Origin: a virus
Direction: 5' to 3' (one strand)
IMG/VR virus record: IMGVR_UViG_3300015360_000154
Span: 1 to 28,779 of that record
DNA: 28,779 bases
The position numbers were made by a program, and so were the translations under genes. The notes beneath the pieces are model-generated. The model saw nothing but the letters and a program-made list of their open reading frames with translations, was not told the origin of the DNA and did no database searches. Positions 1 to 16,017 of the stretch are shown in pieces. The number at the start of each line of letters is the position of its first letter. Positions within the stretch are counted from its first letter, which is position 1.

Positions 1-12
1 GAGGACATCAAA

Positions 13-300
13 ATGAGCAAGATTTACACAGGCACTGACTTGGTCGAAAAGATCGCAGCGGAAATTCACAGTCATGGCTTTTGCGAAGTAAGACCAGGGG
101 TTTTTTTGGCGTCACAAGAAAATATCATTTCTGATCAAAAAGGCTGGGAGGGTGACGCTTTAAAAAACTTCGATTTTAAAAAAGCTGATTTTTGGCTGAC
201 TACTGACGATGCTGCAAAGCCAGAAGGTTTTGATTCCATTCAAGAATTTCTCGTGGACTCTCTAGAGACAAAGAAAAGAAGGAGTTTCTTGCTCGAATAG
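13..300 (+). CDS. Hypothetical protein, 95 aa
   Basis: I do not recognise this protein. It starts at an ATG with GAGGA at positions 1-5 as ribosome binding site, seven bases upstream. It is soluble, of mixed charge, with no signal peptide or membrane segment and no motif I can name. The middle is rich in aromatic and acidic residues (KNFDFKKADFWLTTDDA) and the C-terminus is basic (ETKKRRSFLLE). It is the first of three plus-strand genes at the left end, facing the minus-strand gene at 318-536 with a 17-base gap between their stop codons. No clear terminator hairpin lies in that gap. Coding status rests on the good ribosome binding site and the tight fit between neighbours. Confidence 0.65.
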   Translation: MSKIYTGTDLVEKIAAEIHSHGFCEVRPGVFLASQENIISDQKGWEGDALKNFDFKKADFWLTTDDAAKPEGFDSIQEFLVDSLETKKRRSFLLE

Positions 301-9441: not shown

Positions 9442-10578
9442 TTATAGCTCCTCTCTAAGTTCCATAGTAGCCTCATAATTTCCAGGGCTGATCAGCCTAT
9501 AAGCTGGTGGCCTAACGAATTTTACGTATCTAATCATTTTTGATGCGGCACTAGAAAAAACTAAGCTTGGATCAAACTGTACAAAAAATGGGTTGGCAAT
9601 TCCTAGAGTGTCCCACACGTCGTCAATCTCTTCCTTTTCAGCAACAGTTAGGCCAGACCATCCAATTGAAAACGTTTCTGACTTCTCTCTGATATCTGAA
9701 AATGTTTGTCCACCTTCTGAAAAGCTCACTCTCGAATTGTCTTCGTACTGTGATTGTAACGGGTATTGCACCTGTCCCCTTGTACTCTCAAAGAATATCC
9801 CGAGAAATAAAGCGCCCACTTCGACGTAACCTTCCGGGTTGCTTAAGTCTTCAATTGAAAGTCTGGCATACCTTAACGCTTCAGGCCAAAGCCCTGTTGA
9901 GCTGATGCTTGCGATTACTGAGCTGTCATAGTCAAGCGTGATTTCTGTATTGACGCTGCCTGGCGTCCAGACTGAAGTTTCATTGCCTTGTAGTTTGATA
10001 GTTGCACTGGGGGTTATTCTAATTGGTCGGTTTCTTGGGCCGATAAGAATAAATGCAGTTGGTAAAGTAGATATGCCAAAATCAAATTGAATGAACTCTC
10101 CAGTAGAAATTCGAAGTTCGTCTGCCACATACGTTAACGCTCCCGTGTCCTCTTCGGTTGTTGAAAATCCCAGTATCTCGGCCATTGATGAGGTCGGCCA
10201 AGCTATTTGAAAGATGCCACCACCACCCGCGCCATTGCTTACAATCTTAACCTTCAGAGTGGTTGTATCACTTGTGACCGTATAGGTAGAATCCCCGTTA
10301 ACTTCCAGAGCCGCTTTGATTGCTGTGTACAGTGCGGTTGATGATGCGTATGTCCCGACCGTGATAGTGGCTGTCTTATCGACTGCTACGGTTTCCCTAA
10401 AAATGATTATGTTGTTTGACGATGTGATATTCCAAAAGCCGTTTGACCGCCAAACCTTTGATCTTCTGTTGAGGTTCAAAGCATTGACTACAGGAAAGGC
10501 CGCTTGCTCGCTTGACACTGACAAGTTTGATATCAAGTCTAGGTCAAGGTAATTGGTGCTCATTAAACGTACACTCAT
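9442..10578 (-). CDS. Tail-tip protein, Dit-like by position, with an inserted shared module, 378 aa
   Basis: It directly follows the tape measure gene (ATGA overlap), where siphoviruses usually encode the distal tail protein. Residues 1-50 and 155-378 form beta-rich parts, including LRISTGEFIQFDFGI and an ending GNYEATMELREEL that resembles the end of many tail-tip proteins. Residues about 52-155 form a separate module with the pattern TYASSTALYTAIKAAL, then a YTV strand, then GFSTTEEDTGALTY. The same module occurs in the tail tube protein of this phage. The module looks inserted in an otherwise continuous tail protein. The Dit assignment is from gene order only; the module match is visible directly. 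Confidence 0.6.
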   Translation of the reverse strand: MSVRLMSTNYLDLDLISNLSVSSEQAAFPVVNALNLNRRSKVWRSNGFWNITSSNNIIIFRETVAVDKTATITVGTYASSTALYTAIKAALEVNGDSTYTVTSDTTTLKVKIVSNGAGGGGIFQIAWPTSSMAEILGFSTTEEDTGALTYVADELRISTGEFIQFDFGISTLPTAFILIGPRNRPIRITPSATIKLQGNETSVWTPGSVNTEITLDYDSSVIASISSTGLWPEALRYARLSIEDLSNPEGYVEVGALFLGIFFESTRGQVQYPLQSQYEDNSRVSFSEGGQTFSDIREKSETFSIGWSGLTVAEKEEIDDVWDTLGIANPFFVQFDPSLVFSSAASKMIRYVKFVRPPAYRLISPGNYEATMELREEL

Positions 10579-13500
10579 ATCGTCCTAAATCCTTGTCTGC
10601 TGATATTAAGCATTACGTCCGCGAGTTGCTTTTCCCCAACTTGCAACACGACTTTGATTGGCCCTTGAGTTGTGCTTTGCTGTCCTGATTGACCAGTTAG
10701 AAATTTCTCTAACCTCTCACTGAGTGATCTATCAATCACGTTCTCGCCTGAGGTTAGGCCTGCCCTAAATGTGTCGTTAGGAAAGCCAGCTGGTACTTCT
10801 CCACCTGTTGCAAACAATGCTTTGACGTTCAGAGACTTTCCACCTAAAGCAGCCTTTATAGCATCAAAAATTCCATTGGTAATATCCGTGTAAACATTCT
10901 CGAAAGGCGTAAAAACATCAGAAATACCCTTTATAACTGCGTCAATAAGTGTTTGGCCAATAACCCCGAGTTGGTCACCAACGCCCAAAATAAAGGATTC
11001 CATGCCTTTAAAGAAGGTAGTGCCTGCATTGCCGATGTTATCAGCTAAACCCTTTCCTTCTTTTGATATCTGCAACCCAAAGGTTTTGCTTGTATCAGAT
11101 ATTTGAGCGCCAAAGGTTTTGCTTGCATTAGATATTTGAGCGCCAAAGGTTTTGCTTGTATCAGATATTTGAGCGCCAAAGGTTTTGCTTGCATCAGATA
11201 CTTGAGCGCCAAAGATTTTGCTTGCATCAGATACTTGAGCGCCAAAGATTTTGCCTGTATCGCCTACGTCATCCTTTAACTTTCTTCCAATCGTTCCAAT
11301 TAAAAATGTGTCAATAAAGGATTGCATGCCTGTAAAGAAGGTAGTGCCTGCATTGCCGATGTTATTCGCTAAACCCTTTCCTTCTTCTGATATCTGCAAC
11401 CCAAAGATTTTGCTTGCATCAGATACTTGAGCGCCAAAGATTTTGCTTGCATCAGATACTTGAGCGCCAAAGATTTTGCTTGCATCAGATAATTGAGCGC
11501 CAAAGATTTTGCCTGTAATCGATGTATCAGAGGCAAATTTTTCGCCTGCATCGCTTACGTCATTCTTGAATGAAACCGATGCTTCTTGAACCTCATCCGT
11601 GAACTGTCTTCCAATCCTTCCAACATCTTCAACAAATTCGTCAAAGGCGGTCTTGATTGCACCGCTTGACAATTCCGTAGAAAGCTCTTCTACTAAAGAG
11701 TCTCCTAGTGCTTGTGGAAGTTCTACAAGAAGAGCTTTTGCTATTTCTGGAATCGCTTTAATTATAGCGGTAATAATTTCAGGAATGGATTTAACTATAG
11801 CTATGATGATCTCTGGCGCATGGTCTGCAAGAGTTTCAATAATAACAGGAATGGCTAGATTTATATTTTTAAGAATTTCAGGAAATGCCGCTGCAAACTC
11901 TTCGACTATAGCCTTAACTTTTTCTGGACCTTGAGCAAGCAAGCCAATAATCCCTCCAACCGCCCCACCAATCCCAGGAACGATTGACTCGGCTATGGCA
12001 GCAAAGCCTGCTTGGATAAGCTTTGTTGCACCCGCTGCACCTTCGAGAGCCGCCCCTATCAAACCTACAGACTGACCAACAACGCCCGCTGTTTCTGTGT
12101 CAACGGGTTTAGATGGTCCAAAGATTTCATCAGCTTGAGATGACGTTATTAAAGGACTCGCTAAACCTTCAGCTGTTGCCTTCTTAATGCTAGTGATAAA
12201 CTCTTCTTGCTGTTTCCTCTGAAGCTCTAATCTTTCCTTGTCAATCCTTGCAGTCTCTTTTGAGATCTCAAGCTGTGCGTTGATTCCAATCTCTTGACGA
12301 ACCTTTGCAGCTTCCTCTTCTAAGACTAGCCCCGCTTGTATAGACTCCTTAAGAACATTAAGCTTGTTCTGTTCGTCTTGCTTAATACCCTCAATAGGGT
12401 TCCTTGTGTTGCGAGCTTTCTCTAGATCTTTTTGCAAGTCTGAATAGGAAGACCTGAGTTTGTCTAATTCCTTTTCTTGGTCTTCAAACGCTACGGTTGT
12501 TACCTTTGCGTTCTCACTTATCTTTTCGAATGCGTTCGATGCGTTATTTGTTCCATCACCAAGATCTTTAACTGAATCAACCAGCTTTTGAGCGCCACCC
12601 TTTAATAATCTAAAGCCCTTTTCGGTCTTGCTTATCGTTTCTGTTGTGCTGTCAAAATCATTTTGGGCGCTGTTAGTGAAGCTTTGGACGCTTTTCTTTA
12701 AGTCATCAAAAGCTTTTGTACCATTATCCGCTATGTCATTGGTGCTATCCGATAGGTCTTGAATTCCTTTCAACGTCTCATCTGAAACAAGCTGAACAGA
12801 ATTCATCGCGGTTGCAACGCCGAGAATCTGAGCAATCACAGGTTTGAAAACTTCAGCCCCTAGTTGCGCAAAGATGTTAATAATGGTTTCAGCGAAATTG
12901 ATAGATAACTCTGCAAAGCTACCTAGCCCAATCTTAATGATGCTTATTGTTCCACCAATACTCTGAAAGGCGACAACAACTTTTGCAAACCCTGAAACTA
13001 AATCAGGGATGATATCAAGAATCGCGATGATTCCCTTTTTGTTCAGCTCGATAAATTCTTTTTTATTCTTACTGGCAAACTCACCAAGCTCGACCAGTCC
13101 ATCAGAGAGTTTCCTTATGGCACCCACAACAAATGGATTTTGAGTTATCGTTTGGCCGATAGTCTCGACAAGCTCGCCGTAATTAACGCCGACTAATTTC
13201 ACAGCCCCTGAAAAGGTATTGGTAAGATCAGAGGCCGTTCCTTTGTACTTCTCAGCAAGGATGGCTATTTGATCGCCGTTTGCTTTCTGCGCTTTTGTTA
13301 ATCCGCTAATTTCTGGTAGGGCTTTCTCAAGGGAGGATTTAAATCCCAACATGCCTTTCGACAAACCCTCGACAGACGTGCGAGCGTCAATGCCTCGGCC
13401 CTCTAGGTCTACAGCTGTTTTAACAATCTCTTTTGCTTTTTCATTTGATATGCCAAAGCTTTTGGCAAGAGCTAGTAGACTAAGTGTTTCGTCATCACTA

Positions 13501-13898
13501 AAGCCTGTTGTTTGCTGCAAGCTCCCAGCGAATTCTTGCATGTCTTGCGATGCTTGCTTTGAGAATGATCCTGAATTGGCTAAAGCAATGTTCAGCTTCT
13601 GTACTGCAAACTCTCCCCCTGCTGCTGAACTGACAGCTTCAGAAAAGAAATTGATGATTGCTTTACCAGAAAAGAAAGCCAAGAGACCCGCAGCTGCGGC
13701 ACTAGCAGCCTGCAGACCAGAGGAAAAACCACCTGCGCTTTTCTGTGCTTTGCCTGCAAAATCATCGGCTGAGGTACCTAGATTTTTAAATCCAGATTCA
13801 ATTCCCTGAAGGGCTTTAGTGGATTTCTCAGAAAATCCCTCAATTTGCTTAATGGAATCTGAGACGTTTGTGATGATGTCTAAATCTATCCCAGCCAT
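10575..13898 (-). CDS. Tape measure protein, 1107 aa
   Basis: Sets tail length and is ejected with the DNA. At 1107 residues it is the longest protein here. The N-terminal part has Ala/Ser-rich helices with a hydrophobic stretch (AAAAGLLAFFSGKAIINF). The centre is coiled coil (KELDKLRSSYSDLQKDLEKA), followed by a glycine-rich hydrophobic stretch (GIGGAVGGIIGLLAQG) and amphipathic repeats such as APEIIIAIVKSIPEIITAII, typical of this family. Residues about 770-970 form an 11-residue repeat ladder. The C-terminus includes GEVPAGFPNDTFRAGLTSGE, a segment often seen near the end of tape measures. Its ATG overlaps the stop of the frameshifted chaperone (TAATG), as is usual for this gene pair. Assignment is firm by length, composition and context. 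Confidence 0.92.
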   Translation of the reverse strand: MAGIDLDIITNVSDSIKQIEGFSEKSTKALQGIESGFKNLGTSADDFAGKAQKSAGGFSSGLQAASAAAAGLLAFFSGKAIINFFSEAVSSAAGGEFAVQKLNIALANSGSFSKQASQDMQEFAGSLQQTTGFSDDETLSLLALAKSFGISNEKAKEIVKTAVDLEGRGIDARTSVEGLSKGMLGFKSSLEKALPEISGLTKAQKANGDQIAILAEKYKGTASDLTNTFSGAVKLVGVNYGELVETIGQTITQNPFVVGAIRKLSDGLVELGEFASKNKKEFIELNKKGIIAILDIIPDLVSGFAKVVVAFQSIGGTISIIKIGLGSFAELSINFAETIINIFAQLGAEVFKPVIAQILGVATAMNSVQLVSDETLKGIQDLSDSTNDIADNGTKAFDDLKKSVQSFTNSAQNDFDSTTETISKTEKGFRLLKGGAQKLVDSVKDLGDGTNNASNAFEKISENAKVTTVAFEDQEKELDKLRSSYSDLQKDLEKARNTRNPIEGIKQDEQNKLNVLKESIQAGLVLEEEAAKVRQEIGINAQLEISKETARIDKERLELQRKQQEEFITSIKKATAEGLASPLITSSQADEIFGPSKPVDTETAGVVGQSVGLIGAALEGAAGATKLIQAGFAAIAESIVPGIGGAVGGIIGLLAQGPEKVKAIVEEFAAAFPEILKNINLAIPVIIETLADHAPEIIIAIVKSIPEIITAIIKAIPEIAKALLVELPQALGDSLVEELSTELSSGAIKTAFDEFVEDVGRIGRQFTDEVQEASVSFKNDVSDAGEKFASDTSITGKIFGAQLSDASKIFGAQVSDASKIFGAQVSDASKIFGLQISEEGKGLANNIGNAGTTFFTGMQSFIDTFLIGTIGRKLKDDVGDTGKIFGAQVSDASKIFGAQVSDASKTFGAQISDTSKTFGAQISNASKTFGAQISDTSKTFGLQISKEGKGLADNIGNAGTTFFKGMESFILGVGDQLGVIGQTLIDAVIKGISDVFTPFENVYTDITNGIFDAIKAALGGKSLNVKALFATGGEVPAGFPNDTFRAGLTSGENVIDRSLSERLEKFLTGQSGQQSTTQGPIKVVLQVGEKQLADVMLNISRQGFRTI
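11064..11520 (-). repeat. 33-base tandem repeats encoding an 11-residue ladder in the tape measure
   Basis: Two runs of a 33-base unit encode FGAQVSDASKI-type hendecads: four closely matching copies at about 11385-11510 and six at about 11064-11255. Each run ends with FGLQIS, then E or K, then EGKGL, followed by a shared segment NIGNAGTTFF. Residues in matching positions 11 apart stay hydrophobic before and after the clear copies (FTDEVQEASVS, FKNDVSDAGEK, LKDDVGDTGKI), so the ladder is longer than the near-identical DNA repeats. An 11-residue period fits a long, slightly right-handed coiled coil. Variation between copies is mostly I/T and A/T changes. Confidence 0.9.
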
Positions 13899-14487
13899 TA
13901 TTTTCCCCGCGAGTTTTTAGCCTTATGCGCTCTCATCTCTTCAGCCTGAAGCTGATCAATATAACGGCTTATCATGCAAAAAGCGTCGGCCTTTTCAGCA
14001 GTGAGTTTTGATGAGTCAGTAGTATACCCGAGCTTTGCAAGTCCCAACCTCATTATGTACTCACGAACTAAAAAGGCCGCCGGTGTTTCAAGCTGGTGGC
14101 CTTTATAACTAGCGAAGACTTGCTTTTTTAAAGCTAGGGCGAAGTCTTCCCCAAGAGGAAACCACCATTCGTCATCTTGGTTGCAAGCTCTGATAGGATT
14201 CCAAAGCAGTCATTGTCGTATTTCAAATCATCTACGGTTGTAATCTTTTTACCATCAGCTTTTTTCTTCAGGTCAATCTTGACGATATGTTCGTATGAAC
14301 TTCTCATCATTGATGCGACTGGCTTAAGGTAAGCCGTGCCACCAGCAACTTTAAGATCTTCAAAATTGATGTTTGCTTCGGCCAAATAATCACAACGCTC
14401 ATCTGCAGTAGGCATCCGAATTACAAGCGATCCTTCGAATAGAGCGGCCTCGCCTTTGCATGATTCAGGGATAAAAGAAATATTCAT
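13898..14487 (-). CDS. Tail assembly chaperone, -1 frameshift product (GT type), about 196 aa
   Basis: The long form of the tail chaperone, made when ribosomes slip back one base at G-GGG-AAG (14152-14146), four codons before the short form's stop. Residues 1-113 are shared with the short form. The shifted frame then gives an 83-residue extension starting EDFALALKKQVF and ending in a TAA that overlaps the tape measure ATG (TAATG). The extension is charged and helical and uses the same codon style as its neighbours. It has no start codon of its own at its beginning, so it would be missed by start-based gene finding. In lambda the GT form recruits the tail tube protein to the tape measure; the same role is likely here. 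The open frame and slip site are seen; frameshifting itself is inferred. Confidence 0.8.
14109..14152 (-). promoter_or_regulatory. -1 ribosomal frameshift site with possible pseudoknot
   Basis: On the minus strand the slip sequence G GGG AAG (14152-14146) resembles lambda's GGGAAAG. The glycine tRNA on GGG can re-pair perfectly one base back. Downstream, GAAGACTT (14149-14142) is fully complementary to AAGTCTTC (14121-14114), and CTAGC in the intervening loop (14137-14133) is complementary to GCTAG (14113-14109) directly after it. That is the topology of an H-type pseudoknot, although the first arm overlaps the slip site. CTAGC begins eight bases after the slip site, which is a good spacing. 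Confidence 0.6.
14134..14487 (-). CDS. Tail assembly chaperone, short form (G type), 117 aa
   Basis: The unshifted product, lying between the tail tube gene and the tape measure gene, where siphoviruses place their chaperone. It has a short beta-rich start (MNISFIPESCKGEAALFEG) followed by helical and acidic segments (PTADERCDYLAEANINFEDL). A conserved-looking ASMMRSSYEHIVKIDL segment lies in the middle, and it ends KTSP then TAG. It probably coats the tape measure during assembly and is absent from the finished virion, as known for lambda gpG. By analogy with known G/GT pairs it should be made in large excess over the long form. No sequence identity to gpG is claimed; position, size and the frameshift arrangement support the call. 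Confidence 0.8.
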   Translation of the reverse strand: MNISFIPESCKGEAALFEGSLVIRMPTADERCDYLAEANINFEDLKVAGGTAYLKPVASMMRSSYEHIVKIDLKKKADGKKITTVDDLKYDNDCFGILSELATKMTNGGFLLGKTSP

Positions 14488-14497
14488 GAATAAACCC

Positions 14498-16006
14498 TTA
14501 TACTAAGTTAAGATAAGCTTCGCCGTTGCCGCTGTTATCAACATACCCCGTTAGATCCATTTCAAGCGCCACTAAACCGCTTTGGTCTGAGAGGTTGAAC
14601 GAAGAAATAACCGCACTAGGTAGATACAAACTAATACATTTGCCAGGCGTCCAATTGCCAGAGCTATCTCTGGGGCCAAAATTGTAAAGAAACTTAACAT
14701 TGTCACCGTCCCTAAAGCGTTTGAAATTTTTAGCTTCGTACTGGCTTAAAAGAGAAGTGAGTTTGCAAGTAACTTCTCTAGCCGTGATCAGTGAGCCACT
14801 CCTCCCAGACTCTGAGCAAATATCATCAATCACCTGTCTGGAGTTTGATAAGCTGAAAGAAATCGATGATGCGCTAAAGCAACCAGTATCTGTTGCATCC
14901 CCAAACATGACCGTATTGTACTTTGCAACTAGCGGGTCTGTTGTGTCGTAGCTTGGTGAATAAGCAGCTGCAAAGCTTACAGCGTTTTGACCTGCATAAG
15001 TTAAAGCTCCTGTTCTGTCGGCTGCAGTGAAACCAATTTGGTTTGCAATGCTGTTTGCAAGGTTGGCACCTGTTGCGAACAGAAGGCTAAAGACTGCTCC
15101 AGAACTTACAACAAAAGTATATTTCCCTGTTGTGTCGCTATAGGTGACAGTGAAAGTCTTTGTTGATGCTGTTGCGTCCATTGCGCTCTTTATTGCAGAT
15201 GCAAGCGCGTGAGGGTCTTTGTAGGTCTTAGCTGCCACAGTCGCTACGAATGTACCATCGTCATCTGTGAAGTCGATTTTTGTATCTGTTGAAAGAAGAG
15301 TGATTGGGTTGAAATAGTAGGACAACCCTTCGACTGTAAACTTACCATTAATCAACTCGCCGGCATCTGCGCTGAACTCAAAGCCTGTTACCTTGGCGCC
15401 GCTCATCATCTCAAGAGCGCCACCGTTGCCTTGATAAACCCACACAGATAGCGACTGGTGGCCAGAATCCGATGGATAGTATTCAACTGCCTTGCCTAGG
15501 TTCACACTCACTGCAGGTGCAGCGGTTAGGTTGAACCCGAGAGTTAGGTTATCTCCTGAAATGGAATCAATCGGCCTGATTGAAAACCCGTTTGTGGAGT
15601 CTTTAATCAAGAGAGCTTGACCACGACGGAAATTTGCACCCTCGCCAGTATCAACTTTGATAACTGAAACGGTGGATGCTGCAACAGTGTCATACTCAGT
15701 TGCGTTTACAGCTTCGGCACCGAACGCACCCTTTAGGAAGTCGTTAAAGTCTGGTGCTGTACCCTCTGTTCCAGATGCTTTCATATAATGAGAAAATGAG
15801 AATGATGGATTTTCTGATCCGACAATCGGCTTGCTTGTACCAATTGAACTTTTAACTTCTGCATTTGCCAATGAGTCAAAAGAGCTTTGCATGTCCCCAT
15901 CGTCTTGCAGCGCTGTAAAGTCTGTAACTGCAGCGGGAAGGGCTGGTGTTCCTTCTATTAACTCAACTTTTATTCCCAAGACCGTATTGCGTGTTTGTAT
16001 AGCCAT
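14498..16006 (-). CDS. Major tail tube protein, 502 aa
   Basis: Predicted subunit of the tail tube. It lies directly upstream of the chaperone pair and is beta-rich: MAIQTRNTVLGIKVE leads into SFSFSHYMKASG and later ALEMMSGAKVTGFEFSADAG, a pattern common in large siphovirus tube proteins. The C-terminus ends in a strand-rich segment, LVALEMDLTGYVDNSGNGEA. At about 500 residues it is much longer than a minimal tube protein (150-250). About 100 of the extra residues (near 243-342) are a discrete module with TYKDPHALASAIKSAM and DRTGALTY, also found in the tail-tip protein 9442-10578 and probably displayed on the outside. I chose the second of two adjacent ATGs because GAGAGG is six bases upstream; the first (16009) has only three bases. 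Confidence 0.75.
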   Translation of the reverse strand: MAIQTRNTVLGIKVELIEGTPALPAAVTDFTALQDDGDMQSSFDSLANAEVKSSIGTSKPIVGSENPSFSFSHYMKASGTEGTAPDFNDFLKGAFGAEAVNATEYDTVAASTVSVIKVDTGEGANFRRGQALLIKDSTNGFSIRPIDSISGDNLTLGFNLTAAPAVSVNLGKAVEYYPSDSGHQSLSVWVYQGNGGALEMMSGAKVTGFEFSADAGELINGKFTVEGLSYYFNPITLLSTDTKIDFTDDDGTFVATVAAKTYKDPHALASAIKSAMDATASTKTFTVTYSDTTGKYTFVVSSGAVFSLLFATGANLANSIANQIGFTAADRTGALTYAGQNAVSFAAAYSPSYDTTDPLVAKYNTVMFGDATDTGCFSASSISFSLSNSRQVIDDICSESGRSGSLITAREVTCKLTSLLSQYEAKNFKRFRDGDNVKFLYNFGPRDSSGNWTPGKCISLYLPSAVISSFNLSDQSGLVALEMDLTGYVDNSGNGEAYLNLV

Positions 16007-16017
16007 CATTTGCCTCT

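Follow-up and report, generated by a model that had tools for sequence, protein, structure and literature searches.

A tail assembly chaperone pair of the lambda G/GT kind, predicted to arise by −1 frameshifting at a variant slip site with a probable downstream RNA stem, in a phage family

The phage DNA analysed here (the window, the whole 28,779 nt of IMG/VR record IMGVR_UViG_3300015360_000154) very probably encodes a tail-assembly chaperone pair of the G/GT type, the longer member of which would be made by a programmed −1 frameshift at G GGG AAG, with a downstream RNA stem as a probable stimulator. Our high confidence in this reading comes from the comparison of related sequences. The majority of ribosomes would terminate at the G stop codon, yielding a protein of 117 aa, and a minority would slip one base back at G GGG AAG and read ~82 further codons to give GT, a protein of roughly 198 aa that ends in the three-helix T domain. 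If lambda is a guide, G would coat the tape measure protein and GT would bring tail-tube subunits to the tape measure. Its conserved position suggests that the stem in the mRNA, with its 5′ arm 5 nt past the slip site, probably retains the ribosome over that site and determines the ratio of G to GT. A spacing of 5 nt is within the usual range for frameshift stimulators.

All genes concerned are minus-strand genes. Directly 5′ of G is the gene for the tail tube, or major tail protein (14498..16009, 503 aa), and its product matches Pfam PF18906 Phage_tube_2 (E 7.7e-9, above the family cut-off) and phrog_290 (tail). G itself (14134..14487, 117 aa in the zero frame, TAG at 14136-14134) was assigned as the short tail assembly chaperone on its position, homologues and predicted fold. 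It sits between the tail tube gene and the tape measure gene (10575..13898, 1107 aa; phrog_5493 and other tape-measure families), which is the gene order of G/GT systems. The 3′ end of G reads GGT GGT TTC CTC TTG GGG AAG ACT TCG CCC TAG, the slip site G GGG AAG (14146..14152) being in phase with this frame. The −1 frame extension encoding the T domain (13898..14149) runs from GAA at 14149 to AAA at 13901, 83 codons in all, and ends in a TAA at 13900-13898 that has one base in common with the tape-measure ATG (13898-13896; TAATG). A first-pass annotation of the DNA had placed G, the slip site, the extension and the TAA/ATG overlap at these positions, and all of them hold on re-reading the sequence. 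It was also right that the gap between G and the tape measure is without a conventional gene, as no ORF of at least 60 aa with a conventional start is found there. Two further features of the neighbouring genes were observed. The tape measure gene contains 33-bp tandem repeats at 10989-11623 (minus), coding for 11-aa units like SDASKIFGAQV, within a 324-bp duplication. Residues 256-339 of the tail tube protein (14501-16009) and the product of 10578..9442 (9445-10578, minus) have a stretch of ~89 residues in common that is 31% identical (E 3e-4).

The open −1 frame in the window has a small but not negligible probability of occurring by chance. Of 5000 dinucleotide-shuffled versions of this stretch, 24 remained open, and the window alone is therefore suggestive; for this reason relatives were needed for the test. 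Further loci were drawn from IMG/VR by means of a tail-tube profile. The first set comprised 24 distinct G/extension pairs, the window included (23 relatives). The second comprised 49 loci, some of them duplicates, of which 47 were readable; one of the other two ends at a contig edge and one has neither G nor an extension. All 70 readable relatives, among them each of the 47 second-set loci with a recognisable extension, encode a homologue of the extension in the −1 frame relative to G. Within the first set the −1 frame was free of stop codons over 1907 codons; the other two frames contained 135 and 152. Stops in the extension frame of relatives had been named beforehand as the observation that would speak against frameshifting; there were none in the 24 distinct loci and all 47 further loci encode the −1 extension, which is strong comparative support for the lambda G/GT-type −1 frameshift that had been proposed. 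Judging from related pairs of sequences, the extension evolves as a protein under purifying selection (dN 0.03 and dS 0.21 for L024-L039; dN 0.32 and dS 2.24 for L016-L021). No relative came up when cultured phages were searched at the DNA and protein level for G, T and the tail tube, nor did the tail-tube profile give a match in the bacterial genomes scanned with it.

Since one base would join the frames of G and T, the two could in principle be a single gene whose frame was changed by a sequencing error or by breakage. This is hardly conceivable given that the identical −1 arrangement is found in 71 contigs, the window among them, from many samples. The near-identical partner of the window (L003) differs from it at 13 positions in 9.5 kb, none of them in G or the extension, and both frames are under selection. 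The comparison of sequences has, in our view, already refuted this reading. It is also very improbable that T is a separate small protein, made from an internal start or by ribosomes that re-initiate once past the G stop, even though ATG, GTG or TTG codons are present in the extension of some members and a comparable pair in Edwardsiella phage eiAU, gp15/gp16, is annotated as two genes. No start codon is conserved in the extension across the alignment of first-set loci; the earliest ATG in the frame of the window extension is codon 34, and several relatives lack any start codon in the first 20 or more codons. Internal initiation would also mean the loss of the conserved first helix of T (residues 2-17), and it leaves the conservation of slip heptamers at the nucleotide level without explanation.

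The −1 frameshift, by comparison, is well matched by the sequences at the end of G. Of the 24 first-set loci, 19 have an in-phase X XXY YYZ heptamer no more than 20 codons from the end of G, against 1.3 expected from the rate in the tail tube gene. A slippery sequence in phase is kept near the end of G in the relatives, and the window itself carries the variant G GGG AAG. In 18 loci the glycine is encoded by GGA or GGG (log10 P −9.1) and the codon before it ends in G (log10 P −8.6), both beyond what codon usage predicts, in a calculation that takes the loci, which were selected for having the motif, to be independent. When loci with an assigned slip site are taken together, 52/62 are canonical X XXY YYZ sites, mainly GGGAAAG, GGGAAAC and AAAAAAN. 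The non-canonical sites are GGGGAAG (window, L023 and L096), GGGGGAA/G (L074, L084 and L111), TTCCCCT/AACCCCT (L016, L021 and L061) and CCCCTTG (L009). Three loci (L083, L094 and L095) have the −1 extension but an overlap without a slip motif of the tested classes. An upstream Shine–Dalgarno-like stimulator found no support in most loci.

The window heptamer does not obey the canonical rule of two identical triplets followed by any base, but it is only one base off the usual G GGA AAN of the family and occupies the same position in the alignment. In the tail-tube tree, L023 belongs to a supported clade (99/95) separate from the window, and the motif class must change four times. The simplest account is thus that G GGA AAG gave rise to G GGG AAG on more than one occasion, by a substitution that leaves the product of G unchanged. 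We infer that the P-site GGG re-pairs perfectly after the shift and that the A-site tRNA-Lys must read GAA via a first-position G-U pair; slippage at this site may be of low efficiency because of that pair. The authors of PRFect bring up G-U pairing for related slip sites (PMC10885494), and in the literature we did not find GGGGAAG described as a tail-chaperone slip site. The manner of slipping also bears on the junction peptide LLG-EDFALALK predicted in the first-pass annotation, which is the one expected if the P-site tRNA slips alone, whereas tandem slippage would give LLGK-DFALALK. A frame change by slippage of the polymerase during transcription, in place of the ribosome during translation, appears very unlikely. 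Runs of 6-8 A can favour polymerase slippage and are found in some relatives (L042 and L125). However, the run in the window consists of four G only, which is short for polymerase slippage, and most relatives have G GGA AAN. Moreover, codon phase and a downstream RNA stem should matter to ribosomes only.

Such a stem was overlooked in the first-pass annotation, as was the variant status of the slip site, although its coordinates and frame for the slip region were correct. In the window, the 5′ arm of the predicted stem, GCCCTAGCTTT (14130..14140, minus), begins 5 nt after the heptamer and holds the zero-frame TAG. It pairs with the 3′ arm AAAGCTCGGGT (14026..14036, minus). After a 6-nt A bulge the helix continues with the 5′ arm GCAAGTCTT (14115..14123, minus), which pairs with GGGACTTGC (14037..14045, minus), directly adjoining the 3′ arm AAAGCTCGGGT. 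The predicted fold of the 125 nt has an energy of −39.1 kcal/mol, with a z of −2.4 against codon-order shuffles and −3.0 against synonymous shuffles. Compared with shuffles the window stem alone reaches p 0.06-0.09 only, and the whole 125 nt are more convincing. A separate 8-bp hairpin beginning within the window slip site was set aside, as it has no counterpart in L023, which carries the same heptamer.

Folding of 60-nt windows after the slip site detected no downstream structure among the relatives. We rejected this negative result because many 3′ arms lie beyond 60 nt, and windows of 110 nt reveal a signal: when beginning 0-7 nt past the slip site their mean z is −1.5 to −1.6, compared with 0.1 to −1.1 elsewhere. 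Folding only the first 60 nt evidently overlooks stems with distant partners. A positional test then looked, over offsets from −700 to +418, for the place along each locus at which a 13-nt arm has its most favourable pairing with the following 110 nt. In the 24 loci the strongest of all offsets was +4 (mean standardised energy −1.61, profile s.d. 0.33), and the signal at +2..8 corresponded to Fisher P values of 5.5e-8 with codon-order and 7.5e-5 with synonymous shuffles. The test had been fixed beforehand when it was repeated on 38 new loci, where +4 once more gave the peak (−1.93, s.d. 0.31) and the +2..8 signal of the 36 new loci of sufficient length gave Fisher P 1.5e-17 (codon-order) and 2.2e-11 (synonymous shuffles). 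The control offsets +32 and +50 (+50..56) showed no stem signal in the new loci. The Fisher P values are not exact, as the loci share ancestry; yet the peak recurs in the second set, in which the controls are flat. The 5′ arm begins some 4-6 nt past the slip site and the 3′ arm lies at a variable distance; the start of the best stem is mostly 5-8 nt after the heptamer, and this stem spans about 30 to 115 nt. Between L016 and L021, two stem pairs are changed on both sides (A-T to C-G and A-T to G-C).

Taken together with the position, these comparisons make the stem a probable structural stimulator of the frameshift. Even if the frameshift is real, the stem might be a by-product of the coding sequence and play no role, a possibility that we consider rather unlikely. 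In many cases its 3′ arm coincides with conserved (K/E)LG(Y/F) codons and its 5′ arm with Ala, Leu and Arg codons, which are partly complementary, and according to a review the shifts of certain tailed phages seem to occur without a need for stimulatory signals (PMC5009743). On the other hand, synonymous shuffles keep the protein and still leave the +2..8 signal significant in both sets, the signal is absent at +50..56, and the starts of the best stems cluster near 5-8 nt past the heptamer. On balance we lean somewhat towards an arrangement in which the 5′ arm is fixed a few nt past the slip site, the 3′ arm is free to lie ~20 to 120 nt downstream and the stem sets the frameshift. In this arrangement, X XXX-type variants like G GGG AAG, in which perfect re-pairing occurs in the P site only, would work with the help of the stem.

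The proteins themselves are not recognisable from known sequence families. At an E threshold of 0.001, G has no match in Pfam or PHROGs, and T matches one unnamed family in 1/24 members only; a PDB sequence search gave no match for G and chance-level matches only for T. As far as sequence goes, the G/T pair is a new family of the lambda G/GT kind, adding a chaperone pair that no Pfam or PHROG model matches. AlphaFold predicts an alpha/beta fold for G (pLDDT 84) and three helices for the T domain (pLDDT 93). Among the PDB matches listed for the G model are the HK97 tail assembly chaperone 2ob9 (Z 4.3), 3fgx (Z 5.8) and 5ir0 (Z 5.2), all with modest Z scores. The T model resembles no PDB fold convincingly, the best match being to unrelated helical proteins (Z 4.2). 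A profile search against GT-type extensions had been suggested earlier; in sequence it led to no family for either G or T, and the likeness that did emerge is that of the G model to the HK97 chaperone fold. Against viral folds, eiAU gp15 is the top match of the G model (prob 0.96); several proteins that bear the name tail assembly chaperone match as well, and the E-values are weak throughout. A 282-residue viral protein in BFVD, A0A514TZ59, is matched by both the G model (prob 0.89) and the T model (prob 0.96, TM 0.70), the pattern expected of a GT fusion, and is possibly an annotated fused GT.

A frameshift that sets the G:GT ratio is a known conserved feature of long-tailed phages, and in lambda this ratio matters for tail assembly. 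Lambda G/GT shares with the window the location between the major tail protein and tape measure genes, the −1 shift near the end of G and an extension that reaches the tape-measure start. Its slip site, G GGA AAG, is one base from that of the window and identical to that of many relatives. In lambda, G binds the tape measure protein and T the tail-tube protein (PMC5009743). The window family differs in that neither G nor T matches any sequence family searched and in its shorter T. The same stem test is not significant for lambda (p 0.17-0.29), in contrast to the window family. HK97 gp13 and its extended form are an annotated −1 frameshift pair in the same place as the window G; a fold shared by G and gp13 is only suggested by the models (2ob9, 83 residues aligned, rmsd 4.3, 8% identity over the alignment). 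In eiAU, gp15 comes after the major tail protein; gp16 overlaps it in the −1 frame, and A AAA AAC precedes the gp15 stop. These two proteins have no detectable sequence similarity to G and T and are annotated as separate hypothetical proteins; at 41459-42120 of eiAU (L045) they look like an unannotated −1 frameshift pair. The site of Bxb1 gp20/gp21, GGGGGAA, and the SEA-PHAGES GGGGGAA sites (PMC10885494) are G-rich like that of the window, with a P-site GGG able to re-pair perfectly. The window pattern of four G followed by AAG is absent from the named motif classes of PRFect (PMC10885494). Stems at tail-chaperone frameshifts may be wider spread than stated, since N15, Bxb1 and eiAU give p 0.005-0.18 in the same test, depending on the shuffle. 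The large comparative set allows the choice of slip site and a positioned RNA stem to be read together. From these sequences, the general picture drawn in the review (PMC5009743) does not appear to fit the uncultured phage family of the window, in which a stem after the slip point probably acts as a control of a sort not generally attributed to tail-chaperone shifts.
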